The translations under genes were made by a program, and so were the position numbers. Shown here piece after piece: positions 37,209 to 64,000 of a stretch of DNA of 64,000 nucleotides. The DNA comes from Stratiolaelaps scimitus. Its lineage: Eukaryota > Arthropoda > Arachnida > Mesostigmata > Laelapidae. A model generated the notes under the pieces. It made no database searches and was not told where the DNA came from. It saw only the letters and a list, made by a program, of their open reading frames with translations. The stretch is from assembly GCA_019614645.1 (NCBI GenBank), contig JABWDB010000046.1, positions 2,370,001 through 2,434,000 of the forward strand, written 5' to 3'. Each line of letters begins with the position of its first letter. The first letter of the stretch is position 1.

Positions 37209-37615
37209 TCAGGTCGTAGAATCTACCGTCGGCGAAAGGTACTTGCAACAATGTTGACCGTACAGACAAAGACGCTTTCCAATGGAATACATTTGAGTCC
37301 CACAATAGGATAGGCATATACCTTTCAACTCGTCGCAACCTATGCTCGCCGTTGCTGAAAACGGACACAGTACATGGTAAAGACGTTCGAAGAATTTACT
37401 TTATTTTTTCTTTAGTACTTCTTCTTTAGCATGATATCAACTACTCTAATAGAGTGTGTATATATATTATATAGTATATATATATATATTATATATATAT
37501 TGTCAAATATTATTCGAGATATGAAATTATCAACTACATACACAACCATGATGATTGGCCCCCATGACGGACTTATGGGGGCCAATCATCGTCCCCCATA
37601 TATAGTATATATATA

Positions 37616-37657
<42 letters not shown>

Positions 37658-37851
37658 TATATATAGGTGGTAAAAACATAATTATATTATATACATAAAT
37701 ATATATGTAATGATTTTTTTTGCGTTTCGGGTGAACTAGCATCGCTACAGACGCAACGTACAACTCTAGCGGATTGTATGATTGAGCAATACAACAAACC
37801 TTTTATGCCCACAATGAGGGCCAGCAGCATGAAAACGGTGGTGAGCTTCAT
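37209..37851 (-). CDS. def1: secreted beta-defensin-like peptide, two exons
   Basis: Exon 1 is 37800-37851 (minus): 17 codons of a signal peptide starting MKLTTVFMLLALIVG, plus one base, with donor AAAG|GTTTGT. Exon 2 is 37209-37354, after the acceptor CGTTTTCAG. The phases join exactly and give 65 residues. The cysteine domain reads C-x6-C-x3-C-x11-C-x5-CC with an 11-residue tail, matching the spacing of trans-defensins (beta-defensins and big defensins) and not the CxC ending of arthropod CS-alpha-beta defensins. It is the most divergent member: GIC replaces GGxC, IGKRLC replaces IGTHLC, and the net charge is near neutral. The intron is 445 bp and filled with AT repeats and a hairpin. A TATA-like TTAAAT lies about 75 bp upstream of the ATG. 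Predicted as secreted; an antimicrobial role is inferred. Confidence 0.85.
37550..37590. repeat. perfect 16-bp hairpin in def1 intron
   Basis: 37550-37565 is the exact reverse complement of 37575-37590 with a 9-base loop. It is flanked by long AT microsatellite tracts (about 37,450-37,500 and 37,600-37,665), which make up most of the def1 intron. Confidence 0.85.
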
Positions 37852-37924
37852 TTCTCTGAGGTCTCTACCAGCCGGTAATTCGTAGTGCCACTCGGGAAGC
37901 TCCTGTTTTGACAACCGGACTACG

Positions 37925-37930
37925 ATTTAA
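37925..37930 (-). promoter_or_regulatory. TATA-like box of def1
   Basis: TTAAAT on the minus strand, 74-79 bases upstream of the def1 ATG. It sits in a 5' region that aligns base by base with the same position in def2 and, more loosely, def3 and def4. Confidence 0.5.
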
Positions 37931-38726
37931 GCTTCTCAGTTGTGAGCTCGCTCAACTGCTACTCGGGGTGCTATTACTCAAACCAAACCTGTTATGTCCC
38001 GTCGTGAAGAGCGGTTGTCCTAGAATGTCGCAGATGTTTGATAGACTAAGATATCCTCGACTCCAACGCTACTCCTACTGAATTTACTAGACACTTTTCG
38101 TTATCTGTGGCGAGCTGTTTCCTTGTGTTTATACTAATGGTACTGGACTGTTTTAGTGTTTTTTTTAGCAATATCGTGGATGTTGAATGTTGGCTGAGAG
38201 TCAGCCCGGAAACATTGGATTTATGATTGCTGCTCAGATATGACGAGGTTGCGGGGCCATAGGATCAGCGGACGTCGTAGGCCTGTGTTGGGACAACAAG
38301 TTTGAGCATTTTGTCTTAAAAACCTTATCATATGTAATTCTCGAAGTCAATCTCGATTTTGGGTACGATCACAGACTGGGGCGATAGAGCGTCCTGTAAG
38401 AGGGGTCTTACATTGTGGTGAATGTGATACCCTTCTTAATTACTAATACCCTTTCACGGGGTACAATTATTGCCTAAATTATATGAAGTAATAGAGGAAA
38501 ACCACAGTGTTATAAATAGCGGCGACTCTTTCAAAAAGATATAAAATAACGAAGGTTGTCTTGCATAAACGACGACATTTTAATTAATAAATATATATAT
38601 ATGAGTCTTAGGTCACCTATGACTAGATTATACAGAATATTTAAAAACTAAGATATGAGTGATATACCGGCATATACGACATTCATTATGGCAACTAATT
38701 ACATTCGGTCGACAATCCTATAGCAA

Positions 38727-39310
38727 GGTTTTATAGTTTGTGGAAAATGCAGCACAAGTGGCTGTTATATGGTGTCCACAAGATACGTATTTATTACGCC
38801 TCCTGCAACCGAACAGGCTGGTAGCGAATTTTTATCTTGAGGAAAAAACGAACGGCTTTGGGTCTGCTAAAATTAAATATATTCTATATTCTATGCTGAA
38901 CGTGTCAAATCCGAATACATTTTCCTACAAATGCGAAGTAGGTTTTCTTTGAGAATTCGATCGAAATTGTTGCGCCTCCTAAATTGTAGAGTTGGAGCCG
39001 TTTTGGTATAGACCAAGAGCCGCTGGGAAACAAAAAAAAAAGCCTCAGAAACATTTCTACAAACAAATACACCTCTGCACCACCTTGGATTCGATGTGGA
39101 ATAGGATTCTAAACAAGAACAAACGAGTGGAGCACTTTGTCATTGAGCGGAAGTCCGCCGTCCCTCGAAATATGGTGGTACTGCAGCGGCGTCAGGGAGC
39201 TCATTTCAATAAGCTTCTTTATTTCTTCACTTTATTTCTTCTTTACAAAAATAACGTAAAACAAAATCAGTTGGTTTCTGAAAATGCGAAGACGATTCGG
39301 TATAACTAGG
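38727..39310. repeat. distal 5' flank of def1 unit
   Basis: Paralogous to 32,440-33,005 and 46,690-47,165. Open frames on the plus strand here are short and broken differently in each copy, so I do not call a gene. Confidence 0.7.
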
Positions 39311-39888
39311 TTGCATAATCAAGATAAGACCAATGTATTTGATGAAAAATACATATCGTAATTTTTATCACAACAGTCTCTGTTCGACCGCGTGTCGCCC
39401 ACATCTAGGCCACGTAGCGATCTCGCATTTATTCTATTTTGAATACACCATCCTTTATTGAGCGTTACAGTTCGTAATCTGGGGATTCTTGCGCGGAGTG
39501 AATCATCGCTGCTCGTCAGATAGTAATCGGAGGAGAGCTTATTTCTGCCCGAGTGGCTTTAACGAGACAGTGTTGCAACACCGTGATCGCCGTCGCTTCG
39601 AAGGTTTTCAGAATTAGGTTAGCTTTGAACCATGCCGGGGTTTCCCTACTGTTTTCTTTATATGTTAAACACGAACGCTTCGTTGATTTATACTCGCAGG
39701 GTGTTGTACAACGTCTCACCGAGCAACTCAGTAACGAGCAGAAACCACCAGAGGACGTGAGTTAGCACATTAGAATTTACCCTCCACCTTTCAGCTGTCA
39801 ACAGTATCCTTACTTTCATAGAAGACCGATTGCAATTAGAGCTTACCTTAATCCGAGTGCACCGTCAACTTTGCATTCAGTGTTATGA

Positions 39889-41119
39889 CTATTGAACTGC
39901 ACGAAGATTAATTGGGGCTGAGGTGTACAATGTCCCGATGAAGGCGATTGCATTGCCCCTCTGCACAGCGAGGGACAGGCGCTGCAGAAGGAAAAAACCT
40001 GCGCGCTTGTCCCCGGTGGCGCGGTTGTACCTATGGTAGACCCCTTCGAGGAAGTTCGCAGTGAGAGGGCCGTGCCCGCCCAAGGTCTCAAAAGCAAGGG
40101 GGGAAAAAAGGTGGGTTGCTTGGAGTGCGGCGTCCTTCCTTAGCTTGGCCCGCTCCGCACGCGCTACCACGTAACCGGGGGTGGTTGCACAGTGGTTGAC
40201 ATAAGAAGGTGCTAGAGTGTCAACCACCGTGCCGTCCCAAACAAGGTGCTGGCCTCGGTGGAAGGGGATAAGGGCGAGGCCGTCAGGGCGGCGCCCGTCA
40301 GAGGTGTCGAGGCCCTGTGGCTCCCTTGTGCAAGGAATACCGGCGGAGTGGAGGGCCCTCACGAGCGTGTCATTAAGCATCGTGTGTCGCGGATGGCGAC
40401 CGGCGCTGCGTTCGCACAATAGTCCGTGGTGGCCATTCGTTGCGACGGGGTCGCCGCAACGCTCACAGCTGTGGGCCGCAACTACAGGGACCCCGAGGCG
40501 GAGGCCCGCACAAAAGCGGAGGGAGCGATCGTCGAGAGCAGTGCCAAGGGACGTGGAGGGCAGCGCGTGGAGCCACGCCCCCGCACCAGGCCTGTCGACA
40601 GCCCGGAGGCGTGCTTGGTCTGCAACGTGTGGCGCTGAGGCCAGGAGGGAGTCCCACAGCTCCTTGTGCAGGGCATCGGATCATACCCGCTGCTTGCTCC
40701 GTTTGTCCTGAGGGACCCGGGAGTAGACGCCCGTCTGGTCAAGGGCAGCTTCACGGGAAGCGGTTAAGTGGGCGAGAGCTTCGGGGGGGAGGAGGACTGT
40801 AGCAACCATGTCTGCGCCAGCCGTAAGCGACGTTGCGTAGCAAACGTGAGCCAAGCGGCGTACACTAAGGATGCCGAGGCCACCGAAGCGAACCGGAAGG
40901 GTAGCCTGCGACGCCGCTTCCGGAAGAAGCTGGAGGTACTGGATCGTGGTCAGAGCGTCCAACACAAGTCGTCATACCCGTGAAGGGCTGAAGCCTCAGT
41001 GCCGGCCGGGCATGTCCTAAGCAAGTGCTGCATGCGTGCCGCCGAGAAACAGGACCGAAGGAGGAACAGCCCCTGGTGAGCCGATAACAGAGGCAGTCGA
41101 CTGCACGAATGATGCGCAT
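39889..41119 (-). pseudogene. REL-type retrotransposon C-terminus, copy 2
   Basis: GC-rich minus-strand coding remnant, readable almost continuously with a few frameshifts. In order it shows: a segment with PVRFGGLGILSVRRLAH (about 40,880), a leucine/alanine-rich linker, a zinc knuckle CERCGDPVATNGHHGLLC (about 40,450), then RHPRHTMLND, EPQG, DGRRPDGLALIPF and LVWDGTVVDTLAPSYV (about 40,240). The open 176-residue frame 39,889-40,419 is the C-terminus. It belongs to the same family as 30,253-31,900 but is much better preserved. The knuckle plus PD...D arrangement suggests a restriction-endonuclease-like domain (inferred). The RT core itself is not present on this side. Its GC content contrasts strongly with the AT-rich surroundings. 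Confidence 0.8.
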
Positions 41120-42127
41120 AATATATCACTACTATATCTATGGTACGTGGTCGAGTCGTTTGAGGCTGGGCCCCAGCCCTCCTCTCCGGCTAAGAACATG
41201 ATGAAAGCCATGGATTGAAAAGCGGGTATTGCTAAATTCGCAATGAACCATGACAACGATTCTGGAGAACTCGCTGAGGAAAATAGCCCAGGAACGCGTA
41301 GCTGTGCAAACAATGGTGCATTATTTCGGCCAGTATCCAAAACGCGTCGCCAGATCCAGGGCAGCAATCAGACGGGCCCATATTAAATGGGTTCGGTACC
41401 ATTAGACAAAACACTTCGGAGTAGCAGCCAACGTCGGTGACATTCAAGCCAAAATCGGTGCGAATTCTGTGTTCCCACTCGACCATGTCGTACAAACACT
41501 CTCGATGTGCTAATTGGTGCTAGTGTGCCCCGACTTGAATAATGGGTGCTGTGTGCCCCGACTTGAATAATGTAACGAGGCATCTAAATGTGCTATAACC
41601 ATATTGTTTGATAGCAATGCATTTGCGTTGGGCGTTGTCTGGAGAAACTATCGAACGAGTTTGATACTTTTCGGCTAAATCTCGCAGGATCATTTTGCAG
41701 CTACCGGAAGACATCCCCTTATCAGCGGCACGGTAATTACTTCCCTTATTTTGAATCTGTGACAGGGTAAGCTGTGAAATCATAATATTCACGTCACACT
41801 TTTTATCGAGTATCGAGTTACTCATCCTTACGTGGAAAATACGTTTACTCGTTCTCAATGGCTACTACTCGGGGCTACCCTGAATATTTTAGGTTAGTAG
41901 ATGTAATGACGATGAAATCTCTAATAGCCTCTTTTTCTCAGTCCATCGTCTCGTCCAGTCTCCTGTTTGTTATTTCCTTCTCCATCGTAGAGCAGCGCAT
42001 ATTTGTCAACGGATGCGGATGGCTTTAGCTATCGCCTGCATTAGCCCACACGTGAAAAATCTTCTAATACCTGTTGAAGAGTTAAATCTTTGCTCTTTGT
42101 CAACGGGATGGTCTATTTTAACCGTCA
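41120..42127. other. no gene seen
   Basis: Short frames only. A short tandem duplication (two copies of about 30 bases with 'gtgccccgacttgaataatg') lies at about 41,515-41,575. Nothing else recognised. Confidence 0.4.
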
Positions 42128-42667: not shown

Positions 42668-45233
42668 CTAGCGCCAGACGCAGCAATGTTGACCTGAAGG
42701 ACCACAAAGATGAGTTCCCAGGGAGCGCTGTCTAACTCCGCATTCGCTTCGGCATACACCACCCCTCTGCTCGCAACTTTTAGTCGGAGTCGCAGTAGAC
42801 GCTAGAATAGACACAGTACACCCTCTTTAATTTATGATTCAATTAAATTTGATTCCGACCCAGCAAATAGTTATGGCTGCTGACTCACTCGAAATATATA
42901 TCTATCTCGTGAGACAACGACTTATTCCTCCGGATTGGCATTTGCGCCCCCCCCCCCCCCTCCACCAAAACCGTGCGCTAGAACAGTTATAATTGTTCTA
43001 CGATATAAACGAGTAGTACGGTTGTACGAGGAGTGGTATTACGATACAGCCAAAGCTAGAAGCAGTGAAATCGCTAAACTTGTAACTAGGTGCGATATAC
43101 ATAAAATCAAGAAATAAATGTAACAATGCAACTTAGGTAATGCCTGAAAAAAAAATGGATATTATGCGTTATGTTTGATTACACAAGCGGGTACAAAAGC
43201 TGCGCAGCCCGCCGCGTGACGTATCTGGTGCTGAACCTGACGCGGTAGGTCCTGATCTTCCCGTCGTGTCCTTCCCTCGTTTCGATCACCCTCACCAGCT
43301 TCCACCGGTCCCGAGGCCTAGTTCTCGTCACGTACGATGCACACGTCGTCTACCCTGATAAGGGTTAGCCGTCCGCAACTGCAGCATGTAGTCCGTGTAC
43401 CAGGGATTCGACAGTGGCCGGAAGTAATTTGTCCGGGTGACCACAGTCCGGCGTACGTCTTCGCCTGAGGGGCTGTTGGTGGGGACTTCGCCATTTGGAC
43501 CAAACTCATCGAACGACGCGATTGAGCGCGTTGTCGCGCGGTCCACCACGGAGGAAATCCGATGGTGTAATAGGTGTTGGCTCGTTGTCGTCGAGGTCTA
43601 TGTAACTAAGGGGCCGCCCGTTGATTACGGCCGCGAGCGCGCACAGAATGGTATGCAACTCTTCCGAGCCGACCAGGCTTCGCCAGAGGGTCCGCCTCGG
43701 GCAACACGAGCGCCTTTGACCAGAGACACCAAACGTTCGAATAATCTTGCTACGGAGCGAGTGGACAATTGAACGACCAGTCGTCACGGTGTTGACCTCC
43801 AGGTTGGCCCTATACGTCTGATTACACTACAAGCAACCAACCTCACCATAAGAATCCTCGAGATCGCTGGTCCGACGTTCAAGGACATTCGGAAACCTAT
43901 TTAAGGCAGTCGAGTCGGTATATTTGAACTTGGCTGCTCGGATGTGGAAGCGAGGTACGTGAACGCCAAACTTTTTTTAAGTTTGGCGTTTTAACTACCC
44001 ATATTTTATCCCATATTCAGGGGAATTCAATTTAAAATGCCCTTGGGTTGAATGGGATATAAGAAATTTTAAACAACACAAACGAACTTAATTCGTTAAG
44101 ATTTACCCTGTTTAGCCGTTCATTTTTAAAGAAAGGTCTGTATACGTCCCAGTGAAGATTGGGGGAGAATTTTCGACACATGGTGACTGCGCACCAATGA
44201 AGGCCGCAAGCAGCAATGACTGAATGAATGAATAGTGTCAAACGATGCATGTAAAAAATGCATGCACCTCACCCATGCCAAACCTCGACCATATATCGCA
44301 GGAAGGAAAATTTCCAAGGACTTCCAACTTTTCAGCCATTGAACTAACGGGCAAGTTCATGGATGCTTTGATAGTTAAAGGTTTGATAGACAAGTTGAGT
44401 GATATGATAAGTGATGTATACCAGTCAAGGCACCATTTTTCGATATCGAAGCGGCAATCACAAATCGTCGTTTACATAAATGAGAGTCAGCTTAGAAAAA
44501 AAAAAAAACAAGGTAGGCAGACAGTTTGCTCCTGTTTATGGGTTTTCACAAAATCTTCCCACTCAACAGCGAGTAGGTGGTTTAGTGGGTTTGCGAGTAC
44601 CACACTAGTCACTATGGCTAGTGTGGTACACACATGTGCATTAAGCATACCCGAAATCCTCCACAAAAAACAGTTTGAGAGGACAATGTGCAGAAAACGG
44701 TTTGAGAGGACAATGTGCAGAAGCTGGTATCAATGCATCCACATCTGAAAGCTAAATACCAGCTGGAACTTGGGAACGTGTACAACGTTCTGGCTGTACC
44801 AAATATTGGTATCAGTGTTAAAGAAGCTTGGCCCACCAGGTACCCAAGGCCGTTCGCTAGCTCGGATACCAACCTGAGAAAAAGGCTCAAAAAGTCAGGA
44901 GTAGGTTTCTGAAAGGTCTCCTGAAAGAGTTCCCTATCAAATGATAGGTGCCACGAACTGCCACGAACTAATGTGTCCTACATGCACATATTGACCCTGT
45001 CAATTATCATCACCATGATCATGACAAGTGTGTGCTAAAATAATAGGTGTAGCCTATCGCCTTTTTTTCGATAAGATTTATAGATGTAATGATGATTTTT
45101 TTTGCGTTTCGACTGAACTAGCATCGCTACAGGTGCAACATACAACTACAGCTGATTGTATGGTTGAGCAATATAACAAACCTTTTATGCCCACAATGAG
45201 GGCCAGCAGCATGAAAACGGTGATGAGCTTCAT
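42668..45233 (-). CDS. def2: secreted beta-defensin-like peptide, two exons
   Basis: Exon 1 is 45182-45233 (signal peptide MKLITVFMLLALIVG, donor AAAG|GTTTGT). Exon 2 is 42668-42801 after the acceptor TCTATTCTAG. The joined frame is 61 residues. After a short Ser/Thr/Pro spacer come C-x6-C-x3-C-x11-C-x6-CC and a three-residue tail VWR. The domain contains GGVC and LGTHLC, as in beta-defensins (GG before the second cysteine, GT before the fourth). My hand count of net charge in the cysteine domain is about +3. The intron is 2,380 bp and contains a BEL/Pao integrase fragment (43,185-43,790). A near twin of def3: the cysteine domains differ at four of 35 residues. Secreted host-defence role inferred from the pattern. 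Confidence 0.9.
43185..43790 (-). pseudogene. BEL/Pao integrase C-terminal fragment
   Basis: Minus-strand frames carry the BEL/Pao hallmark 'AAVINGRPLSYIDLDD' followed by PTPITPSDFLRGG (about 43,560-43,640), then a VVTRTNYF...WYTDYMLQLR segment, then VDDVCIVRDEN (about 43,325-43,350) and PRDRWKLVRVIETREG with DGKIRTYRV and LLYPLV at the end (about 43,190-43,310). At least one frameshift separates the parts. This is the end of a pol gene inside the def2 intron. I could not delimit long terminal repeats. Confidence 0.8.
44661..44718. repeat. 27-bp tandem duplication in def2 intron
   Basis: Two adjacent copies containing 'ggtttgagaggacaatgtgcagaa'-type sequence. The unduplicated form is present in the def3 and def5 introns. 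Confidence 0.7.
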
Positions 45234-45306
45234 TTTTCTGAGGTCTCTACCAGCCGGTTATTCGTAGTGCCACTCGGGAAGCTCCTGTTTTGACAACCGG
45301 ACTACG

Positions 45307-45312: not shown

Positions 45313-45651
45313 GCTCCTCAGTTGCGATACCGCTAAAATGCTGCTCGGGGTGCTATTACTAAAAAAAATTCTCGACTCGAACGCAACTCCTCTTGCATTT
45401 ACTAGACAATTTTCGTTATCTGCGTGTATCTGTCGTTATTCCATGTATTTATACCTATGCTACCGTGGACTGTTCGTGTTCCTTTTTTAGCAATGTCGCG
45501 GACGTTAAATGTTGGCTGAGAGTCAGCCCGGAAACGTTGGATTTATGATTGCTGGTCAGATATGACGAGGTCGCGGGCCCATTGGATCAGCACACTTCGT
45601 AGGCTTGTGTTGGGACAAGAAGTTTGAGCATTTTGTCTTAAAAACCTTATC

Positions 45652-46328
45652 ATATCTAATCCTCGTCGGGGATAAGCTCGCCTCCAGGGACCTGGCCACG
45701 ATCGACAGAGTCAAACCAGCGTTCTTAAAGTCAGTACTCGGTTTGCACGCCACGGCACGGAACCGGCTTGTCTATCTGCTGCTCGACACGCCATCGTTTG
45801 TTGAAGAAATCCGCCAGTCGTTCAACCTCCCAGAAACAGATAGTTACCGCATCTTTATAGATGGTCATAAAGCGAAGAAGAGAGAGGTGGACCCGTCGTT
45901 CTTCACGACTCCAGCCATGACTGATGGCAATTGGAAGCTTAGTAAAAGAAGGAATAGGCACCATGTTACCAGGTTCGCGGTTCACGGATTTCACCATATA
46001 GTCTGCGGAACACAGAGATTCCATGAACCTGATGATAATTGCGTTTGTAAATTCTGTAGTAAAAAATATGAGAGATACCACGCAGGAAAATGCGAAGCAA
46101 TTAGGTCAATTAGTCATCTCTTAAATATAAATGACTAATCTAGTCGTAGAATTAAATATACATTGATCAATGCAATCAGATGGAACTATGTTTTATAAAA
46201 AAAAAAAAAGTGCTCCTAGAATTTTTACATGAAACCTTACACATCAGAAACTGACTTGTATATTGTACATACCGTTGTAATTACTCGAACAGAGTGAAAA
46301 TAAAACGAATAATAATATCTAATCCTCG
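45652..46328 (+). mobile_element. 5'-truncated non-LTR retrotransposon with 14-bp TSD
   Basis: The inserted segment is 45,666-46,314, bounded by identical 14-base copies of 'atatctaatcctcg' (45652-45665 and 46315-46328). It encodes the C-terminus of a non-LTR polyprotein, ending at the stop 46136-46138. Landmarks are RVKPAFLKSVLGLH, ARNRLVYLLLDTP, PETDSYRIF, and a terminal Cys/His cluster CVCKFC...YHAGKC. The upstream part of the open frame (from 45,605) belongs to the host flank, not the element. A 3' UTR follows, with an A run near 46,197 and a final AAT-type tail. The matching position in the def1 unit (about 38,325-38,345) is uninterrupted, which shows the empty site. Confidence 0.85.
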
Positions 46329-47165: not shown

Positions 47166-47169
47166 GTAT

Positions 47170-48850
47170 GAGATTTCGGTTGCATAACCAAGATAAGATC
47201 AATGTATTTGCACAAAACGGTTTTTGAGCGACTCCGTCATCTGTACCGACCGAGTTTTCCTGCAGCCTAGATCTGATTAGCTGCAGCATGTTTATTGGAA
47301 CTTCACACACTTCAAGCTTCAATTTTTACTGGTGTTGTATTACTCCAAACTGCATGTCGTACTGCACGTAGGACCCCCCTCGATCTACTTAGTACACGAT
47401 GCACCTCTTGAAGCAACAAGTCACGCGCCGTGTCCGTGGCGCGCCCCGTTCGAAACCTGTATTGCTCTGCTGTTATGTGGTTGCGCGTTCCGGGAATCCA
47501 CAGCTGAAAGGCTCCTCCGTGATGATGCCTTCCGAAATACGTAGTTTTCTCTGAATTCCGAAGTGCAGATGAAGCCTTCGAACGTTGGGAGTGTGTTCAT
47601 CAGACCTTGATACGCCTAGTGCTCCGTTGAAGCGAATAGTCCTCTATCTATTTGCTAAGTTATCGTGTATCTACACGCATTATCTAAAATATAAACCGAA
47701 TGAAGATCATCGAAGAACATTGGCGGAAGACAAATTGACTCCATTTGAACTGTTTGCATGTACCAATTATGGTGTTGTGTCACAGGTGAATATTGTTTCA
47801 AACGCCGCTGAAAACGTAATCCTTGTACTTTTTTAGAAAAAAAAAACGCTATGAACCGAGAAAGTGAGGCCCACAAACCGATTAAGTGACTGGTTAAGGC
47901 TCTGCTGGTTACATCGACATCAAAACTTCCAGTTCAAAGACCCATCAACAGCATCCATTGTCAGGCTTCCGACAACGGATGATTTTTGAACTCTAGCTAA
48001 TCTTTGAACTCTTCCTTAAAATAGTTGCGGAGATTATTAGTATAATAGCTCGCGTCGACTCTTGTCTGAATACATGATAGGCAGTATCCTCTCTACTCAT
48101 AATCAGGTTCGGCTATTTCTTATGGCTTCATCTTGACTAGGCATAGGTCACCATCTTTCGGGTCTCAAACATCACGCTTGTAGTCTACAAGTGCCAGAAA
48201 GCACGAGTAGCTTATCGCTTAATCATGGAACAACCACAAATAACAATACGTTTGCATTTCACTTCGCCTTCGGGTGTCAAAACCCAATGACTCGCGTGCC
48301 ATTTGAACTCCTTGGTCCGTGTTTCAAGACGGGTCAAATAACTAATGCTAACCATTGATGGCGGGCCACTTACTGATGATAACACACTCACCGCAAAAAG
48401 GAATCAACCGATTCGCAGATACAGCAGCTACCGATCATAAACGCAGCCCTCAGCTGTCGCACAGCTAAACTACGCCAGCTCGCTAGCGCCCAGCATGCAA
48501 CTGCGCACTAAGTACGGACTATTGCACTAGAGCTTCGTCGCCAACATCTAATACTTTTTTTTGTCTATATAGCGATGAGGGGAAAATGAGTGTATGCCGT
48601 CAGAATGTATGAGATAATCCTATGGGTGCGGGCCAAACCATGTGAGACTGACTATGGATAAAAACCTGCCTATTTCGCACTAGAACCCCTAGACTTCGTG
48701 TTATTAAGCCTGTTAACACGCCGCACTTCAGATAGATGTTGGAATTCCATATTTAATACTTCGAGCATTTGTCAGAGTATTTTCTTGCTGCGTTATTCTA
48801 CGGCGTCAACAGGGTTATTCTGCTCTCCGCCACTTCCTCCTTGGAATCTA
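47170..48850. other. mostly featureless spacer between def2 and def3 units
   Basis: Two things stand out. About 47,555-47,606 resembles 33,835-33,885 (shared 'gatgaagccttcgaacgttgg'). A plus frame around 47,655-47,785 reads THYLKYKPNEDHRRTLAEDK and LTPFELFACTNYGVVSQ before a possible donor CAG|GTGAAT; I do not recognise it. The rest shows nothing. Confidence 0.35.
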
Positions 48851-49120: not shown

Positions 49121-50342
49121 CTAGCGCCAGACGCAGCAGTGATAACCTGAAGAACCACAAAGATGAGTTCCTAGGGAGCGCTGTCTAACTCCGCATTCGG
49201 GTCGGCATACCCCACCCTTCTGCTCGCAAGTTCTAACCGGAGGCGCTGAAAATAGACACATAACATTTTCGATGAAGAGACATACTACAATTCTAACTTG
49301 TTATTCTATGATTAGAAGACTCAAATGGGGTCAAGATAACCAAAAATACTGTATCGAAAGGGAATTGCTATCATAATTGTCTCAGCCTTCTGTAAGCACA
49401 CAAGTTAAATGCATTCCTATATATATATATATATGATAGTGTATTCTCTCTGAGACTGCTTCAAAGTTCTGTCAAGTCGGTTATGCTGGACTTTCAGACC
49501 AGTTCAACGATTGGGCAAAGTTGTGAGTAATATGATAAAAGATATGTATACCAGTCAAGGCACCACTTTTCGATATCGAACCGGCAATCACAAATCGTCG
49601 TTTACATAGTAACCGCCCTCAAAGAAATGCGCATTAGCCAAGGTCGGCAAACAGTTCGCTCCTGTTTATGGGCTTTCACTACGTTCATGCTAGATTGGTT
49701 TCACAACATCTACACACTCAGCAGCGATGAGGGTGTTTAGTGGGTTTACCAATTTCACACTAGCCACTATGGCTGGGTGACACATGTGCATTAAGTATAC
49801 CCGAAATCCATCACAAAAAACACGTTGAGAGGACAATGTGCAGCAGCTGATCTGGTATCAATGCATCTAAATGTGAAAGCTAAATACCAGCTGGAACTTG
49901 GGAACGTGTACAACGTTTTCACAGTATCAAATATTGGTATAAGTGTTAGAGAAGATTGGCCCGCCAGGTGTCTTGAAGACCGTTCGCTAGCTCGGATATG
50001 TAGTAGGTTCTCAGGTAAGGAATAGGTTTCTGAAAGGTCTCCTGAAAGAGTTTCCTATCATTTAGGTGCATTAACTGCCACGAACTGATGTGTCCTATAT
50101 GCTCAATTTGACCATGTCAATTATCATCACCAGCGTCAGAAGTGTATGTCAAAAGAGTAAGTGTAGCCAGTCGCCTTTTTTTAATAAGATTTATAGATGT
50201 AATGATTTTTTTGCGTTTCGGGTGAGTTAGTATCACTACGGACGCAATGGACACCTGTAGCTGATTCTGTGGTTGAACAATACAACAAACCTTGAATGCC
50301 CACAATGAGGGCCAACAGCATGAAAACGGTGATGAACTTCAT
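49121..50342 (-). CDS. def3: secreted beta-defensin-like peptide, two exons
   Basis: Exon 1 is 50291-50342 (signal peptide MKFITVFMLLALIVG, donor CAAG|GTTTGT). Exon 2 is 49121-49245 after the acceptor TATTTTCAG. Joined length is 58 residues. The cysteine domain is C-x6-C-x3-C-x11-C-x6-CC with tail VWR; it contains KGGVC and LGTHLC, and net charge is about +3 by hand count. Relative to def2 it has a shorter spacer (PPVRT) and four changes in the domain. The intron is 1,045 bp with no transposon found in it. A second possible acceptor in the intron (TCTTTCAG before 50,041) opens a long frame in the matching phase; see findings. Confidence 0.9.
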
Positions 50343-51120: not shown

Positions 51121-51128
51121 ATATATAT

Positions 51129-52977: not shown

Positions 52978-54270
52978 TCATTTTCCTACTTTAGGTGAGG
53001 CGATACAGCAATGCTCTACTGGCTCACCACAAAGGTGAGTTCCAATGGAGCGCTGCTTAATTCGGCATTTCGCTAGGCATTCGCCACCGGCCTTCTCGCA
53101 AGTTGTCCAAGTGTCAATGTCTGAAGCTGAAAAGTCTGAAGGTGATGAAACGTCTGAACCTGATGAAGAAGCTGAACCTGGTGATGAAGCTGAAGGTGAT
53201 GAAGCTGAAGGTGATGAAGCTGAAGGTGATGAAGCTGAAGGTGATGAAGAAGCTGAAAATGGACGAAGCACACATTACTTACATATTACTAGTAATATAC
53301 GCCTAAACGAATTTATTCGTTCGGACCCATGACCCAGCATATCGATGATCATACATGATTAGATGATTAGACACTAATGTTTTTTTTTTGTCAAGCTGAC
53401 CCTCAGCTGTTTTCCTATCTGACAGGCCCCTCAGCTGTTAACCTTTAGGTGTTACTATGAGGACCTCTCGAGGCCACCTTTGCTTATTCTCTGCCTCACT
53501 CGTACCAATTACATTAGACACTAATGTAATCCTAGTCAGGTAAATTCTAATCAGGGAACTGTTATATTGAAAGACAGTCTTTATGAAACCCCTTTTTTGA
53601 CGTTTTCGCTCCTGTTTGTGGGTTCACAGTGTTCGTGCGAGAGTGGTTTCACAACAGCCTCCCACGCAACAGCTAATATAGGAGTTCGAGTCGCACACTA
53701 ATCACTATGGCTGAGTGACACATGTGCCGTTCGCGTACGCTTAAAACGGTACCCGAAATCGCCCATAAAATCTCCAAAATAGATGCCGTTAGGGGACAAT
53801 GTACGGAAGCTGACCTGCTATGCATCGAAATGCAAAAGCTGGATCACGGGAGTTGGTACAACGGGAGTTTGATCGTCAATATTGTATCAATGTTCAAAAG
53901 CTTGGCCCGCCAGGTACCCCATAGTGAAGACAGTTCACTAGCTTCTCTCAGGTAAGGAATAGGTTGCTAAAGGGTCTCCTGAAAGAGCTTCCTAGTATTT
54001 CGGTGCATTCATTGCCACGAACTGATTACATACACATTTTGAGCCTGTCAACTAACATAATCAGTATCACAGTTGATGCTAAAATAATAGGTTTAGCCTA
54101 ACGCCTTTTTTCGATTTTATAGATTTATAGATGTAATCGATTTTTTTTGTGAACTAGCATCGCTACAGGTGCAACACGCAACTCGTAACGGATTGTATGG
54201 TTGAGCAATACAACAAACCTTGACTGCCCACAATGAGGGCCAACAGGAGAAAAACGGCGATGAACTTCAT
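52978..54270 (-). CDS. def4: beta-defensin-like peptide with SASSP-repeat linker
   Basis: Exon 1 is 54219-54270 (signal peptide MKFIAVFLLLALIVG, donor CAAG|GTTTGT). Exon 2 is 52978-53252 after the acceptor CCATTTTCAG. Joined length is 108 residues, much longer than its sisters because 50 codons precede the first cysteine. That stretch is Ser/Ala/Pro-rich with repeated SASSP units, from a 15-bp minisatellite, and ends with an Asp-containing segment. The cysteine domain is standard: C-x6-C-x3-C-x11-C-x6-CC, with AGGEC and IGTHLC, an eight-residue tail, and net charge about +3. Each minisatellite unit carries a TTCAG|CT that could serve as an in-frame alternative acceptor. The intron (966 bp) carries a SINE-A insertion. 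Confidence 0.85.
53120..53252. repeat. 15-bp coding minisatellite in def4 exon 2
   Basis: Perfect and near-perfect 15-base units (plus strand GAAGCTGAAGGTGAT) are centred on 53,190-53,245, with degenerate units to 53,120. On the def4 strand they encode repeated Ser-Ala-Ser-Ser-Pro; on the plus strand they give an acidic frame that I regard as a shadow. Confidence 0.9.
53366..53527 (-). mobile_element. SINE-A insertion with 15-bp TSD in def4 intron
   Basis: The SINE body (about 53,381-53,512) lies between identical 15-base copies of 'attagacactaatgt' (53366-53380 and 53513-53527). The A tail appears as a T run at 53,380-53,389, so the element is in minus orientation and 5'-truncated. The def5 and def6 introns carry the uninterrupted equivalent (around 56,275-56,320 and 63,190-63,240). 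Confidence 0.9.
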
Positions 54271-55987: not shown

Positions 55988-58900
55988 CTATTTTATGCGA
56001 GGCGGCTCTCGAGGGACACAGCACGGAAGACCTGAAAAGGCACAAAAATGAGTTCCAATGGAGCGCTTTGTAATTCCGCATTTGGGTAGGCATTCGCCAC
56101 CTACCTTCTGGCAAATTGTAATCGCTGAAAATAAACAAAGTACATTTTAGATGAAGAGACATACTACGACTTGTTATTACCAAATATACTACACGCCAAT
56201 TGAGTGGAGCCTAAACACTCTCTTAAATTTATGATTAAATTTAATTTCATTCGGATCCAGCATGGTGATGAGCAAACATGATTAGATGATTAAGTAAAAT
56301 CAGCAGTAGGTAATGTAAATCCTAGTGAGGTAGATTCTAATCAGGGAACAGTTGTATTGAACTGTTAAGTAGTATGTGTTAAGTTATATCCACAACTTAA
56401 TATAACAGTTGAAATTCGAATCTTTTTTTTTACCACCGGTCTGCACATTCGCTAAAATCATCTATGTTTTACCTAGATATAAATCACAGCGAAGTGAACA
56501 TGATGAGCAATCCCCCTGACTGGGCCATCGTATCGTACCCCTGTTGCGATAAGCTTGTAGCGCATCCATATCAAAATCCAACCATATATTGCCGGAAGGA
56601 CACACATTCAAGGATTGGGTCAAGCAGAATTTTTGCTATGGAAGATATTAGTTATTGACACCAAATTAGCTTCTGCGTTGATCTAGTCGTATTCAATTCC
56701 AATGTCTGAGAAGTTGGCAACGTCCAACTTCTCGGCGATTTAATGAATGAGTAAATTCGTGGATGCTTTCCTCTTGATAGCTCATCCTCAGCTGTCTTTC
56801 CATGGCAGGCCTCCATAACAACATTGAAGCAATGGTTGTGCTAGACTTAGTTCAGCATCATCAGAATTAAGGTTCAAAGTGTTAACACACACTTGATCTT
56901 ATTAAGGAACGTCACGGAAGGCAAGATTCTGCGTGTGATTTAATGGGCTCACTTTCTGACCAGTCCAAAGACAGGACAAAGTTATGAGTGACCAGTCAAG
57001 GCACTATTTTCTCGATATGGAACCGGCAATCACAAACCGTAGTTTACATGGCAACCGCTCTCAAAGAAATGCGTATTAGTCAAGGTAGGCAAACCGTTCT
57101 TTCAAGCTGTTTTCGCTCCTCTATGTGGGTTTTCACTGAGTTCGTGCTTGATTGGTTTCACAATAGCCTCCCATTCAATAGCGATTATAGGGGTTTATTG
57201 GGTTTATGAGTCACACGCTAGTGACTATGGCTGAGTGACACATGTGCATTAAGCGTACTCGAAATCGCCCATAAAATCTCCGAAAAAGTGCCTCTTGGGG
57301 AACAATGTGCAGAAGCTGATCTGGTATCAATGCATCGAAATGTGAAAGCTAAATACCAGCTGAAACTACGGAGTTTGTGCAACATTCTGACGGTATCAAA
57401 TATTGGTATCAGTGTTAAAGAAGCTTGGCCCGCCAGGTGTCTTGAAGACCGTTCGCTAGCTCGGATATGTAGTAGGTTCTCAGGTAAGGAATAGGTATCT
57501 GAAAAGTCTCCTGAAAGAGTTTCTATCATTTAGGTGTATTAACTGCCACGAACTAATGTGTCCTACATGCACATTTTGACCCTGTCAATTATCATCACCA
57601 TGATCATGACAAGTGTATGCTAAAATAATATTAGGACATACACTTCAAAATTTCGCGCCTTTCGAATGGCGCACAGCCCGAACTACGCTACACAATGCGT
57701 TCATTTTTGGAGTGGGCACGCGGCAGGAACGTGGCTTTCTTTCGAACACTGAGTGGTTTCGATACGATCAGAAAGATGGACACTGCAGCAGAAAGTTCAA
57801 ATTCCCCCAAAAATCAACGGGAAAACATCAAGTTTTTGTTTCTCCAAAAATACCCTCCAGCTGAAATCCATCGACAATTAGTGAAGGTGTACGGTAGGTC
57901 TGCCTTATGCCTGCGAACGGTGCAAAATTGGTGCAAGCGATTTAACAGTGGAAATTTGGACACCGATGACCACCGAGGAGGGGACCAGAAATCAGGTGCG
58001 ACAAGGGACGAACGGATTGAAAGAATCAAGGCAGCTTTTGAGCAAAGTAGAGCTTGGTCCACGGGGTCATTGTCGGCTGAAACTTTGATTCTTCGGACGA
58101 CGTGTTATAAAATTATCACCAATATACTGAAGAAGAAGAAAATCAATGAAAATTGGGTTTTCCATAAACTGAGTGCTGACCAAATGAAAATGCGTGTGGA
58201 GTGTTCGACATTTAATTTGAAGACTTATACGCAACAAACCAGTCGCTTAGAGCACACCGTGTCGATAGACGAGACATGGGTTAGCCTGGATAGACCCCCT
58301 GAGAAGGACCAAGCAAAACAGTGGCTCCGACAAGGTGAAGCGGCAACGTCTGTGGCAGTGCCAGATAGATTCGGACGAAAGGTGTTGATGATACTCGCTC
58401 TGGATATCAAGGGTGTTTGCTATTATGAAATATTGGCGGCAAACGAAAAACTCAATGCTCCCCGATATCTCGACTTCTTGAAAGGATTGATGAACAAATG
58501 GCGTGGGGATCGACAGCACCGAGTGTGGTTACTCGACGACAACGCAAAACCTCACCGCACTGCTGAAATTACGGCCTGGATGGAGGGGAACAATATTGAG
58601 CGATGGCATCAACCCCCATATTCTTCTGATTTAAGCCCGTGTGATTATGGTTGTTTCCATGCATTAAAAAGGGCAATAGGTGGGGTTCCATATGCAACCG
58701 TCGACTTACTCGCAAAAGCAATAGATAACGAAATTATATATGGAAATGCAAATGGTAAATATTTGGCTATTTCAAAACTCCCAGAGCGCTGGAATCGGTG
58801 TCTCAATAAAGCTGGAGAGTACCTCTAACTCATACCAAAAAATCTTTGTTCTACCTCATTTAGTTCAAAAGTTATTGTCATTTAAAGAGGCGAAATTTTG

Positions 58901-59105
58901 AAGTGTATGCCCTAATAGGTTTAGCCTATCGCCTTTTTTTCGATAAGATTTATAGATGTAATCGGATTTTTTTTGCCCTTCAGGTGGACTAGCATCGCTA
59001 CAGGTGCAACACGCAACTCGTAACCGATTGTATGGTTGAGCAATACAACGAACCTTTTATGCCCACAATGAGGGCCAACAGCAAAAAGGCGGTGATGAAC
59101 TTCAT
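55988..59105 (-). CDS. def5: secreted beta-defensin-like peptide, intron split by mariner
   Basis: Exon 1 is 59054-59105 (signal peptide MKFITAFLLLALIVG, donor AAAG|GTTCGT). Exon 2 is 55988-56124 after the acceptor TATTTTCAG. Joined length is 62 residues. The cysteine domain is C-x6-C-x3-C-x11-C-x6-CC with VGGEC and IGTHFC, and a nine-residue tail rich in Pro and Arg. Net charge of the domain plus tail is about +5 by hand count. The intron is 2,929 bp, of which 1,285 bp is a mariner transposon (57,631-58,915); splice sites are unaffected. Its sister is def6. Exon 2 differs from that of def6 far more than the surrounding noncoding DNA does. Confidence 0.9.
57631..57656 (+). repeat. mariner left terminal inverted repeat
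   Basis: Starts TTAGGACATACACTTC immediately after a TA. One mismatch to the right repeat, at position six. Confidence 0.95.
57776..58828 (+). CDS. mariner transposase (DD34D)
   Basis: The frame is open from 57,695 (377 codons). The ATG at 57,776 gives 350 residues, close to the usual mariner length of about 345, so I prefer it. Counting from 57,695, an N-terminal helix-turn-helix region (about residues 40-90) contains FLFLQKYPPAEIHRQL and a second helix pair ending VQNWCKRFNSG. The linker motif is WVFHKLSADQ (family form WVPHEL). The catalytic aspartates are D192 (IDETWVS), D282 (LDDNAKPH) and D317 (YSSDLSPCDYG), with exactly 34 residues between the last two. No stop or frameshift is visible, so it may still be active; activity is inferred. 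Confidence 0.95.
   Translation: MDTAAESSNSPKNQRENIKFLFLQKYPPAEIHRQLVKVYGRSALCLRTVQNWCKRFNSGNLDTDDHRGGDQKSGATRDERIERIKAAFEQSRAWSTGSLSAETLILRTTCYKIITNILKKKKINENWVFHKLSADQMKMRVECSTFNLKTYTQQTSRLEHTVSIDETWVSLDRPPEKDQAKQWLRQGEAATSVAVPDRFGRKVLMILALDIKGVCYYEILAANEKLNAPRYLDFLKGLMNKWRGDRQHRVWLLDDNAKPHRTAEITAWMEGNNIERWHQPPYSSDLSPCDYGCFHALKRAIGGVPYATVDLLAKAIDNEIIYGNANGKYLAISKLPERWNRCLNKAGEYL
58890..58915 (-). repeat. mariner right terminal inverted repeat
   Basis: Reverse complement of the left repeat with one mismatch; followed by TA. Confidence 0.95.
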
Positions 59106-59149
59106 TTCTCCACGGTCTCCGCCTGCCGGTTATCCGTAGTGCCACTCTT

Positions 59150-59212: not shown

Positions 59213-59369
59213 CCTCAATTGTGAGCCCGCTCAAATGCTACTCTGGGTGCTGTTGCTCAAAAAAGTCCTCGAGTCGAACGCCTATTGTATTTAGTAGACA
59301 GTTTTCGTTAGATGTGGTAAGCTGTTTCCCTGTTTTTAGATTTATGATACCGTGGACTGCTCCTGTTTT

Positions 59370-59880: not shown

Positions 59881-59925
59881 ATATGTCGACCAATCTGTGT
59901 CAAATTATGTAAAGATTCGCAATCG
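59823..59925. repeat. 43-bp inverted repeat around a TA run
   Basis: Arms 59823-59865 and 59883-59925 differ at three positions and flank a short TA run. The left arm is the ordinary end of the shared flank, also present once next to the TA run at 51,068. The right arm is a newly made inverted copy. Confidence 0.85.
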
Positions 59926-59964
59926 TATCTATATATATCGTCCAATTACGAGTTATTTTCATTC

Positions 59965-60555
59965 TGTTCCTAATTAAGCTCCTCAATTGTGAGCTCGTTC
60001 AAATGCTACTCGGGGTGCTATTGCTCAAGAAAAATTCTCGACTCGAACGCAACTCCTATTGCATTTACTACACGTTTTCGGTAGCTGCGGTGAGCTGTTT
60101 CCTTGTTTTTATACCTATCCTACGGTGGACTGTTCGTGTTTATTTTAGCAATGTCGCGGATGTTAAATGTTGGCTGAGAGCCAGCCCGGAAACCTTGGAT
60201 TTATGATTGCTGGTCAGATATAACGAGGTGCTTGGCCATAGGATCAGCACAGTTCGTAGGCGTGTGTTGGGACAAGAAGTTCAAGAACTTGTCCTGAAAA
60301 CCTTATCATATCTAATAGTCCAAGTCAACCTCGATTTTGGGTAGACTCACAGAGTGGGGCGATAGAGCGTCCTGTAAGAGGGTCTTACATTGTGGTGAAT
60401 GTGATACCCTTTATAATTACTAATACGCGTTCACGGGATACAATTATTGCCCAATATTTTATTGTTTTCCACTATATGAATTAATGGTGGAAAACCATAG
60501 TATTATAAATAGCGGTGACTCTTTCAGAAAGAAATATCGAGGGTTGTCTGGCGAC
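59965..60555. repeat. orphan 5' flank without defensin exons
   Basis: A further copy of the unit 5' flank: 'gagctcgttcaaatgctactcggggtg', 'gttaaatgttggctgagag', 'gatttatgattgctggtcag' and 'gtggtgaatgtgataccc'. It resembles the def1 and def2 flanks more than those of def3 or def5. No signal-peptide exon lies to its left: that side is the def5 flank. Confidence 0.75.
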
Positions 60556-61960
60556 ATAACGTTAATCGAGCCGAGATAAAACTCCGGTCTGTACAAAACC
60601 GCGTTTTCAAAGACTTTGGATAGGTTGTCAACTAGGGATAACGTCGCTAATTTGAAGGCAGCTTGCGTTCGCCTTTGTGTTTGAGCAGAGGTAGAATCAC
60701 TGTTAGCTTAAGCTTTTTAGGGAGGACTCCGCGATTCATTGATTGGTTTAGAACGAGTGGCAGCGGATAAGTAAGAAAGGTTGCCGGTTACTATATTCAG
60801 TTTGTTAGGGACTCCCGCTGCACCCACACTCCAGCTTTTCTTCGTCGACTCGAGCGCACTACGTACTTCCGTTACTTTGACGGGGGCGAAGGCAAAACGA
60901 GGCTTCTGACTTTTTCGGATTAAGGCCAATTCAGAAGGGATGTTCCCCTGCAACTCATGTGCCGATAAAGTTTTTGAGCCCACTGTCGCGAAGTGCCAGT
61001 TCAATTCTTCAGCGATCTTCTGAGGAAAGTCTAATAGACCCAAGCTACCATCAAGACTGTCTGGTAATACTACCTCGTCTTTCCCCCGGCACATGTAGAG
61101 TTGATGAATTTCCAAAGTTGTGTAGTGTTCCCTTTCAACCTCGTTTTGAAGAAATACAGCCTTGCAGACTATCCAGTTCACGCTTGAACTGGATACGTCG
61201 TTCATAATAAGCTGATTTGGACTCCTCTTTTCCAGAAACAAGGTGCCAACGATACAACTTATTGACACTACGGCTCATTCTACGAAGCCAAGGCGATAAT
61301 TGAAATCTCTTCTGATGACGGGAATAATTAACCATCACAGTTGAGAAGCAGTGGTCGTATTCCGCGGAGACCAGCCGGCTAAAGGCGACGAACGCCGAAT
61401 CAATGTCCTCAGCATCGTGAACAGCGAGCCAGCTTAATCGGCCCACTCCTGCCACAAATTCCTCAGTACTATTCGCATCGTGCCACTCGACCACCCTGAG
61501 GTTACGAGGTGCGGTATTTCCATGACCAGCGGAATACCATCCTGAAATTGCGACAACGACCGCGTAGAACGATATGAGAATAACGGAGTGTTTGTTCCAG
61601 TAAGCACCTTTGGCGTTCTATGGCTTTCTCTATCTTTCTACAAATTTCACGTTGTTCCAATTGTTCGGCGATGTCCTCTAAACCTTTGTTCAGCCGAAAT
61701 ACGCAAGGGGAGATACGACCCGTTTTTCGGTTCGTACCATGTAGCTGAGTGAATCTGGGAGCACGCACAGAGTCATATGTCAAATGGTGCACACCTCATC
61801 TGCTGATTGCGCGTCAACGAACGCATAACATACAAGCCTCCCTCTAACTGTGTGGCCGTTGTCTGGAGGCGATTAGGATCGGCCACAGTGGGCTCCGGTA
61901 AGCTTTCGTTTGGGTCGATAATAAAGACACGGGCAACTAACATTGAAAAATGTTTGCCGT
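60555..61960 (-). pseudogene. non-LTR retrotransposon remnant, minus strand
   Basis: Reading right to left: an unassigned segment (61,500-61,960); a 119-codon frame with HQKRFQLSPWLRRMSRSVNK and SGKEESKSAYYERR (61,135-61,494), typical of the linker between endonuclease and RT; then a 183-codon frame containing ELNWHFATVGSKTLSAHEL and FAPVKVTEVRSALESTKKSW (60,717-61,268); and finally a broken RT fingers motif with LTVILPLLKHKGERKLPSN and NLSKVFENAVLY in shifting frames (about 60,590-60,720). The element is truncated before the catalytic core. Same family as 51,129-52,145. Confidence 0.75.
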
Positions 61961-62221
61961 TCAAAATTCAAACCTCGTTACTGTGGTGGTTATTGACTGA
62001 TATCTTCGCAGCCAATACTAGGCGGATGATGGACAATGTATATTAATAAATGTAGATATATATATACTCATTGTCCGCTCTCTAAAAGTCGCTCAATAAA
62101 TGTATGTTTTAACAAATGGTCGCTCATTTAGTTAAACTCTGCCTGGATGCAAATGTCAATGATACTTGCATTGTTATTTTCCCATGTCTATTCTTTGAGC
62201 ATCAGCTCGGTCAGTCAGCTC

Positions 62222-64000
62222 GAAAAACGGTTTTTTTTGTGATCAGAGGATCAGTTTCTTGACTGGGACGTCGATCTTGGTTAGACTTAGTTGGATCAAT
62301 AGCTATGATACTGAGGAAGTCAGTATCATAGGACAGTCCGTTTTGGACCATCTGTTTACCTTCTGAGCACCCCTGAGACCGCTGCATTAAGTGACAGCAC
62401 AAGTTTCCCCATTACAAATGATACAAGGTCATTTGTTCAATCGTCAAATTTCCTTAGGTGCCGGTAACGATTTTCCGTGCTGACATCCACGACGCGGATC
62501 ATGTACATGGCAGCCCCCTCCCGGTTGGGAACGACTGATCCGAGCAATGTTGACCGCCTCCGACGTTAATGAAAAGAACCGCTCATCATTGTTCGGATCA
62601 GTTTTCGGAGATGCTTCAAACTAATACCATTTTCTTGCGGCGAGCTTGACTATGATTCTGCATCATTTGTACGATTCTGGTACGTATCTGGTAATCTCAT
62701 GCATATATAAATACAACTACCCATGTGCAGAGCTGCATAGAGCTGCTATATGAGGAGAGCAGTAAATAGAGATTATTGACGATTGCCTGACAGTTAAGTA
62801 CGATGGTATTCGACTATCACATAAAGGACTAAACAAAGCAACCGCATGAACGTGCGTATATTATCAGCTTTACAAATTGGTCTTCATCAGCTTCATCTTC
62901 CACCTATTTTATGCGAGGCGGCTTTCGAGAAACACAGCAGTGGAGATTTGAAGAACCACAAAGGTGAGTTCCAATGGAGCGCATTCTAACTCCGCATCTA
63001 GGTAGGCATTGGCCACCTACCTTCTCGCAAGTTGTAATCGCTGAAAATAAACAAAGTACATTTTAGATGAAGAGACATACTACGACTTGTTATTACCAAA
63101 TATGCTACACGCCAATTGAGTGGAGCCTAAACGACTCTCTTAAATTTATGATTAAATTTAATTTCATTCGGATCCAGCATGGTGATGAGCAAACATGATT
63201 AGATGATTAAGTAAAATCAGCAGTAGGTAATGTAAATCCTAGTGAGGTAGATTCTAATCAGGGAACAGTTGTATTGAACTGTTAAGTAGTATGTATTAAG
63301 TTATATCCTCAACTTGATATAACAGTTGAAATTCGAATCTTTTTTTTTACCACCGGTCTGCACATTCGCTAAAATCATCTATGTTTTACCTAGATATAAA
63401 TCACAGCGAAGTGAACATGATGAGCAATCCCCCTGACTGGGCCATCGTATCGTACCCCTGTTGCGATAAGCTTGTAGCGCATCCATATCAAAATTCAACC
63501 ATATATTGCCGGAAGGACACACATTCAAGGATTGGGTCAAGCAGAATTTTTGCTATGGAAGGTATTAGTTATTGACACCAAACTAGCTTCTGCGTTGATC
63601 TAGTCGTATTCAATTCCAATGTCTGAGAAGTTGGCAACTTCCAACTTCTCGGCGATTTAATGAATGAGTAAATTCGTGGATGCTTTCCTCTTGATAGCTC
63701 ATCCTCAGCTGTCTTTCCATGGCAGGCCTCCATAACAACATTGAAGCAATGTTAAGCAAGGTTGTGCTAGACTTAGTTCAGCATCATCAGAATTAAGGTT
63801 CAAAGTGTTAACACACACTTGATCTTATTAAGGAACGTCACGGAAGGCAAGATTCTGCGTGTGATTTAATGGGCTCACTTTCTGACCAGTCCAAATACAG
63901 GACGAAGTTATGAGTGACCAGTCAAGGCACTATTTTCTCGATATGGAACCGGCAATCACAAACCGTAGTTTACATGGCAACCGCTCTCAAAGAAATGCGT
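62222..64000. repeat. def6 unit, recent duplicate of def5 unit
   Basis: Aligns almost base for base with 55,334-57,090, starting at 'gatcagaggatcagtttcttg' just after a SINE-A end. In the 336 bp directly upstream of exon 2 I count five differences, including one indel. The unit continues past the window edge. Confidence 0.9.
62904..63040 (-). CDS. def6: beta-defensin-like peptide, exon 2 only
   Basis: Exon 2 follows the acceptor TATTTTCAG and is open to a TAG at 62904-62906. The cysteine domain is C-x6-C-x3-C-x11-C-x6-CC with VGGQC and IGTHLC, and a nine-residue tail rich in Lys, Arg and Pro. It is the most cationic member (about +7 by hand count). Exon 1 is not in the window; by alignment with def5 minus its mariner it should lie roughly 1.6 kb upstream, near position 64,700. 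All splice and phase features of exon 2 match def5, so a working gene is likely, but this cannot be confirmed here. Confidence 0.85.

Follow-up and report, generated by a model that had tools for sequence, protein, structure and literature searches.

A 64-kb window of DNA from the mesostigmatid mite Stratiolaelaps scimitus (the window being the whole stretch analyzed, C46:2370001-2434000 of the assembly) carries a tandem array of six small genes that probably encode secreted host-defense peptides of the trans-defensin type. Each gene is predicted to consist of a signal-peptide exon and a second exon with six cysteines. The array had been noticed earlier from the letters of this DNA (hereafter, the sequence-only reading), and the gene models given there were re-derived here.

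A loose six-cysteine scan in the six frames of the window recovered six cysteine exons and no other match; each of the six is on the minus strand. The exact spacing reported before, C-x6-C-x3-C-x11-C-x5/6-CC, was found six times in the window and not once in any of 60 Markov-1 resamplings, and the six minus-strand second exons of the sequence-only reading were recovered exactly. The cysteine spans lie at 37245-37337, 42680-42775, 49133-49228, 53005-53100, 56018-56113, and 62934-63029. Five 52-base first exons (starts at 37851, 45233, 50342, 54270, and 59105) follow the consensus MK(F/L)(I/T)(T/A)(V/A)F(L/M)LLALIVG(I/S)(K/Q) and end in phase 1 before GT. For gene 6, exon 1 lies beyond the window, starting 744 bases past its end (window-scale 64744..64693; C46:2434693-2434744), so that all six gene models are complete. 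The five signal exons described previously are confirmed, and so are, from the DNA gene models, the complementary phases and intact frames of all six genes. In genes 1-5, the frame is open across the predicted junction, with the phase of exon 2 complementing that of exon 1; the script demanded a pyrimidine-rich tract plus AG as the acceptor of exon 2. The predicted introns of these five genes are 445, 2380, 1045, 966, and 2929 bases long (gene 4 in its longest reading), and a phase-1 intron is predicted ahead of the cysteine exon in six of the six genes. The predicted joining gives a precursor with a signal peptide of the type MKFITVFMLLALIVGIQA and the cysteine domain directly after it.

All exons lie on the minus strand. 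Gene 1 consists of exon 1 (37800..37851), which encodes the signal peptide MKLTTVFMLLALIVGIK plus one base in phase 1, and exon 2 (37209..37354, stop included), in which the last loop of the cysteine domain is C-x5-CC; the predicted net charge of the mature peptide is +1. Genes 2 (exon 1, 45182..45233; exon 2, 42668..42801) and 3 (50291..50342; 49121..49245) both end in CCVWR and have a predicted charge of +4. For gene 4 (54219..54270; 52978..53252, with the longest of several possible acceptors), the charge is −1, for gene 5 (59054..59105; 55988..56124) +5, and for gene 6 (exon 2, 62904..63040) +7. In five of the six genes, exon 2 has 3-8 whole codons before its first cysteine; in gene 4, a Ser/Ala/Pro-rich stretch stands there, encoded by a 15-base tandem repeat that offers a possible acceptor at several places.

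Similarity to beta-defensins and related peptides

The assignment of the peptides to the trans-defensin type, made in the sequence-only reading, is supported by Pfam, by a profile search of PDB, and by HHalign comparison with shuffled sequences in which the cysteines were held fixed. In the profile search against beta-defensin families that had been proposed there, two of five exon-2 peptides passed the PF00711 gathering score of 21, both at borderline values (gene 6, 21.6 bits; gene 4, 21.5 bits). These two scores lie outside the range of 58 Cys-fixed shuffles, which produced one PF00711 match at 15.9 bits (1/10 and 0/48) and one PF13841 match (E = 0.43). Starting from the family alignment, PF00711 was reached by four of the six members at E ≤ 1 (best E = 1.7e-4). 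NCBIfam returned no family for the six members. The family profile, run against 177,635 PDB sequences, matched seven distinct sequences up to E = 10 (best E = 0.0086), five of them labeled beta-defensin, one defensin-like peptide, and one carboxypeptidase inhibitor; where the labels do not name the species, the entries presumably come from platypus, tick, and mouse.

When the family was compared by HHalign with fragments of four solved beta-defensins, the probability was 92, as against 15 for 48 pooled shuffles. Target by target, with 60 Cys-fixed shuffles of each as the null, the score was 30.2 for the bovine beta-defensin BNBD12 (null maximum, 17.7; reached by 0/60), 24.4 for beta-defensin 2 (null maximum, 21.7; 0/60), 22.1 for the carboxypeptidase-inhibitor domain (null maximum, 16.0), and 13.2 for panusin (null maximum, 17.2; 8/60); the beta-defensins and the inhibitor domain were picked from the PDB hits, and the null covers spacing and composition, not this choice. 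Judged by these scores, the predicted peptides appear clearly similar to BNBD12, beta-defensin 2, and the inhibitor domain and marginally similar to beta-defensin 8 and DEFB106, and similarity to panusin appears absent.

Vertebrate beta-defensins (PF00711; bovine BNBD-12 and human beta-defensin 2) share with the mite family six cysteines with an adjacent C5-C6 pair at the end (six of the six genes), the succession of signal exon, phase-1 intron, and cysteine exon, and a single domain of small size, which is cationic in four of the six mite genes. Vertebrate beta-defensins, too, form a tandem gene family. The marks GG-x-C and G-T before C4, on which the sequence-only reading had relied, are present in five of the six genes (I-G-T in three); gene 1 has KGIC and GKRLC instead. 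The mite peptides differ in the length of the C3-C4 loop (11 rather than 9), the arachnid host, the Ser/Ala/Pro stretch of gene 4, and the borderline Pfam score. The exon layout itself, previously taken as that of vertebrate beta-defensins, is a weak argument and not diagnostic, because scorpion CS-alpha-beta (cysteine-stabilized alpha-beta) defensins also combine a signal exon with a phase-1 intron and a mature exon that is not divided (PMC6435467). Arthropod CS-alpha-beta (cis) defensins in general share this layout with the mite genes, as well as small size and six cysteines, but end in C-x-C, whereas all six mite genes end in CC. The nasonins of Nasonia are set apart, being described as CS-alpha-beta in the relevant passages of PMC2853521.

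Two further families were compared and rejected. Big defensins (horseshoe crabs, molluscs, amphioxus; PF14862) likewise carry a beta-defensin-like domain after a phase-1 intron, but also a hydrophobic N-terminal domain, whereas exon 1 of the mite genes encodes a signal peptide only; of the earlier comparison with trans-defensins including big defensins, the trans-defensin type holds and the big-defensin N-terminal domain is absent. No convincing PF14862 match was found in the mite family or genome, and the one sub-threshold place, at C33:1307143-1307259, lacks the six-cysteine pattern in three frames inspected by eye. Panusin and its relatives (spiny lobster; the beta-defensin-like peptides of Homarus) are arthropod, single-domain peptides with beta-defensin-type cysteines, but their spacing is 6-4-9-5 (PMC10301333), and nothing beyond the cysteines resembles the mite family; the spacing, and the eight of 60 shuffles that reach the panusin score, rule them out.

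The tick carboxypeptidase inhibitor (Rhipicephalus bursa; PDB 1ZLH and 2k2z) requires closer consideration. Ticks and Mesostigmata both belong to the Parasitiformes, and we take 2k2z to be the second domain of this protein and the protein itself to be MEROPS family I68; its C-terminal tail has the inhibitory role. The mite genes could encode single-domain relatives of it, that is, secreted metallo-carboxypeptidase inhibitors with a beta-defensin-like fold that act through the tail. Besides the HHalign score of the domain, which exceeds the best of its 60 shuffles, 2k2z is matched weakly by gene 3 (E = 0.51) and by the profile (E = 3), the first loop C-x6-C with G-G is shared, and the aligned fragment ends in CCVW, as do genes 2 and 3 before their final R. 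The inhibitor is a known enzyme inhibitor with two beta-defensin repeats, according to the part of PMC6339383 that describes it, and a two-domain carboxypeptidase-inhibitor-like peptide with a beta-defensin-type domain is described, in a passage of PMC11335235, from the venom of a Thaumetopoea caterpillar, another arthropod with beta-defensin-like domains. Against this identification, both BNBD12 and beta-defensin 2 outscore the inhibitor domain, the mite genes encode one domain each rather than two, the spacing of the aligned domain is C-x6-C-x6-C-x9-C-x5-CC, the VWR end is found in only two of the six genes (the other tails being longer and unlike it), and an inhibitory role needs no high net charge. 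We regard inhibitor function as unlikely. The sequence-only reading considered neither the tick inhibitor (PMC6339383) nor the caterpillar peptide (PMC11335235), and its overall interpretation stands in part.

Divergence of genes 5 and 6

Genes 5 and 6 arose by a recent duplication and are the youngest pair in the array. Their first exons are identical (0/52), their second exons differ at 21 of 137 positions, and their noncoding DNA differs at 73 of 3203 (Fisher test of exon 2 versus noncoding, 6e-11). The noncoding differences are spread over the intron to the left (12/1506) and right (2/153) of a mariner insertion, the upstream region (32/865), and the 3' side (27/679). All six cysteines are kept. 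The cysteine span contains 17 differing sites; when these are polarized by genes 2-4, gene 5 accounts for nine of the changes and gene 6 for eight. Counted from the table of sites, 14 of the 17 derived states occur in no other of the six genes, which suggests that each of the two copies has changed rapidly; simple gene conversion from a sampled paralogue is rejected on this count as the source of the difference.

Relative to the noncoding DNA, exon 2 of this pair has evolved faster at nonsynonymous (p = 3e-8) and at synonymous (p = 0.001) sites. The fast divergence is confined to the mature peptide, and its cause is most likely positive selection on the peptide. Several observations limit this explanation. 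Exon 2 shows synonymous changes at 5 of about 33 sites and, with synonymous divergence raised too, positive selection alone is insufficient. The ratio of nonsynonymous to synonymous divergence (dN/dS) of the pair is only 0.82 in the cysteine span and 0.92 in the whole of exon 2, because both classes of sites outpace the noncoding DNA. Across all pairs, dN/dS in the cysteine span ranges from 0.27 to 1.24 and is below 1 in 12 of 15. The excess in exon 2 is not clearly seen in other pairs: in genes 2 and 3, for example, 9 of 96 bases of the cysteine span differ, and the surrounding 257-column match is 85.6% identical. Homogenized introns, or a mutational bias toward exon 2, could also have produced the pattern of genes 5 and 6.

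A conserved signal combined with divergence confined to the exon of the mature peptide is the pattern of toxin families such as conotoxins. The rapid change in exon 2 of genes 5 and 6, with signal exon and introns conserved, would fit salivary or venom-type peptides built on the trans-defensin scaffold and directed at the prey of a predatory mite. The host is a predator, and the genome paper mentions expanded venom and immunity families in the sections concerned (PMC7936031). However, the divergence pattern also suits defense peptides, and the cationic charge fits antimicrobial action; we regard a prey-directed role as rather improbable.

Copy number and genomic surroundings

The assembly searched comprises 426,401,914 bases in 145 contigs, and the match counts given for it are lower bounds. 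With exon 2 of gene 6 as query, the matches were the six array members and, weakly, one place on contig C3 (E = 1.23), where the six-cysteine pattern was not found; the gene 1 query gave three matches, all within the array. These two whole-genome searches with exon 2 revealed no clear seventh member. The PF00711 search of the assembly was uninformative, yielding no match at E ≤ 0.001 in the mite, where it did not recover the array itself, or in 14 control genomes (0/14). The promoter and first-exon module of gene 3 (341 bases) had nine matches in the assembly. Besides the six genes, these were two pieces in C46, 58-59 bases long, from the upstream part of the module and, on contig C22 (C22:8005-8265), a remnant in the form of a broken promoter/signal-exon copy that lacks a start codon. 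The six-cysteine pattern was not found in the first 20 kb of C22, around this remnant. C46 ends about 12.9 kb past exon 1 of gene 6, and C22 begins 8 kb before the remnant; since both are near contig ends, the two contigs may be neighbors in the genome.

The intron of gene 5 contains a mariner element on the plus strand between two TA dinucleotides (57631..58915, ends counted from the printed flanks), with one open transposase frame (57773-58825) that matches Mos1 in PDB at 7.4e-41. As gene 6 has the site unoccupied in its own intron, the insertion probably postdates the duplication of genes 5 and 6. Open frames at 39892-40680 (−), 45566-46135 (+), and 60720-61617 (−) look by eye like remains of non-LTR (non-long terminal repeat) retrotransposons, which we take them to be. 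Pfam, run on 127 of the 150 longest listed open frames, recognized the mariner transposase and one weak RVT_1 (E = 0.0036); these frames and the short ones sampled in the first 37 kb also gave, between them, weak matches such as Muskelin_N (E = 0.0019), for which tblastn offered no support (best E = 0.11). A scan of the genome contigs with the mariner protein found no relatives, nor did a scan of viral contigs with the defensin profile, a mariner protein, and a LINE-like (long interspersed nuclear element-like) protein.

A large-subunit ribosomal RNA fragment lies beside the array at 36939-37010 (+; 77.8 bits, Rfam cut-off 50), and another, below that cut-off, inside it at 48165-48306 (−; 34.3 bits). 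Positions 1-30000 have few internal repeats and a CpG observed/expected ratio of 1.0-1.3 per 2 kb; no gene was recognized there by Pfam among the frames tried, the short frames being sampled as 150 of the 329 frames of 45-80 amino acids in the first 37 kb. Over the window, the CpG ratio is 1.07 and the GC (guanine plus cytosine) content about 44%; the genome paper gives, in the passages on the assembly, 426.50 Mb in 158 scaffolds, the longest of 31.29 Mb, with 45.85% GC (PMC7936031). The CpG ratio fits an arthropod with little CpG loss, unlike a vertebrate, and together with the assembly match it rules out a vertebrate origin of the array. The arthropod host proposed in the sequence-only reading is, specifically, S. 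scimitus.

Proposed function and place among arthropod peptides

Splicing and removal of the signal peptide would release peptides some 40-47 residues long, or as long as about 90 residues for gene 4, which would fold into three antiparallel strands held by three disulfides, probably C1-C5, C2-C4, and C3-C6. The strongly cationic members (+4 to +7, four of the six) would then act on microbial surfaces as antimicrobial host-defense peptides, in a family diversified by duplication and by selection on the mature peptide. We favor host defense because the family is small, secreted, mostly cationic, fast-changing, and tandem, although the same facts suit prey-directed secretions.

A number of results weigh against this interpretation. 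The gene models and their splicing are predictions from the DNA. The donors are GTTTGT or GTTCGT, a polyadenylation motif lies within 600 bases downstream in two of the six genes, and a TATA-type motif lies within 400 bases upstream in three of five. A strict kappa-B-type motif was found within 400 bases upstream in none of five genes, so that the promoters offer no pointer to immune induction. The predicted charges of genes 1 and 4 are not strongly positive. In Pfam, no beta-defensin match was found for genes 5 and 1, the 15.3 bits of gene 3 lie within the shuffle range given the best shuffle at 15.9, and the score of gene 6 falls to 20.9 bits, below the cut-off, with other trimming. In HHalign, beta-defensin 8 scored 20.7 against a null maximum of 20.6, and DEFB106, at 19.1, was reached by one of 60 shuffles (null maximum, 20.4). 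The loop lengths of 6, 3, 11, and 5-6 compare with 6, 3-4, 9, and 5-6 in the four aligned solved beta-defensins, the C3-C4 loop being the only one that departs. AlphaFold with the six-row alignment produced a low-confidence model with strands at 9-11, 17-21, 24-27, and 35-37 (predicted local distance difference test [pLDDT], 60.3; predicted template modeling score [pTM], 0.33); the pLDDT was 55.9 when no alignment was supplied, and Foldseek found nothing with the first model. The structure prediction proposed earlier, with strands at a pLDDT of 60, neither backs nor refutes a defensin fold, and the fold assignment accordingly comes from sequence comparison.

The longer C3-C4 loop, the structure searches that yielded no defensin call, the missing Pfam match of gene 1, and the shuffle that reached DEFB106 would also be expected if the peptides had another disulfide scaffold and had arrived at six cysteines with a terminal CC by convergence. 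Such convergence is, however, very unlikely, considering that BNBD12, beta-defensin 2, and (by 0.1) beta-defensin 8 were reached by no shuffle out of 60 and that all seven PDB matches are beta-defensins, a defensin-like peptide, or a carboxypeptidase inhibitor. That the cluster is decaying or unexpressed, as the transposon-rich surroundings and the broken signal-exon copy on C22 might suggest, is scarcely credible in view of the open frames and full sets of cysteines in six members and the identical first exons of genes 5 and 6.

Host-defense peptides of the trans-defensin type thus remain our preferred interpretation of the array. As a more speculative extension, which we consider possible but doubtful, arachnids may have a trans-defensin family of their own, with a single domain and an ancestry in common with vertebrate beta-defensins and the two-domain tick carboxypeptidase inhibitor; its mature-peptide exon would outpace the introns of the same genes several-fold, at synonymous and nonsynonymous sites alike, as though this exon were a target of mutation or selection.

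Among the matches listed from the open-licence PubMed Central literature, none reported single-domain beta-defensin-like antimicrobial peptides in arachnids and none described the present family, in agreement with the suggestion that it is perhaps undescribed. The ecdysozoan cases known in 2020, as covered in the relevant part of PMC7203481, were the big defensins of horseshoe crabs and the panusins of decapods, with shared ancestry left open there. A defensin search in the mite Dermanyssus used tick sequences and, in the passage reporting it, yielded eight transcripts of the tick (invertebrate) type (PMC10183022); the word defensin is absent from the main text of the S. scimitus genome paper (PMC7936031). 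Arthropods were already known to have beta-defensin-like domains: going by the passages cited, the tick inhibitor (PMC6339383) and the caterpillar-venom peptide (PMC11335235) have them, and clip domains have been likened to beta-defensins in the latter source. Since the likely host is mass-produced, as stated in a passage of its genome paper (PMC7936031), the genes of the array are quickly testable. The mite array is a new data point for these peptides, its predicted sequences being closer to some vertebrate beta-defensins and to the carboxypeptidase-inhibitor domain than to panusin, and its genes 5 and 6 offer a compact case of exon-confined divergence.

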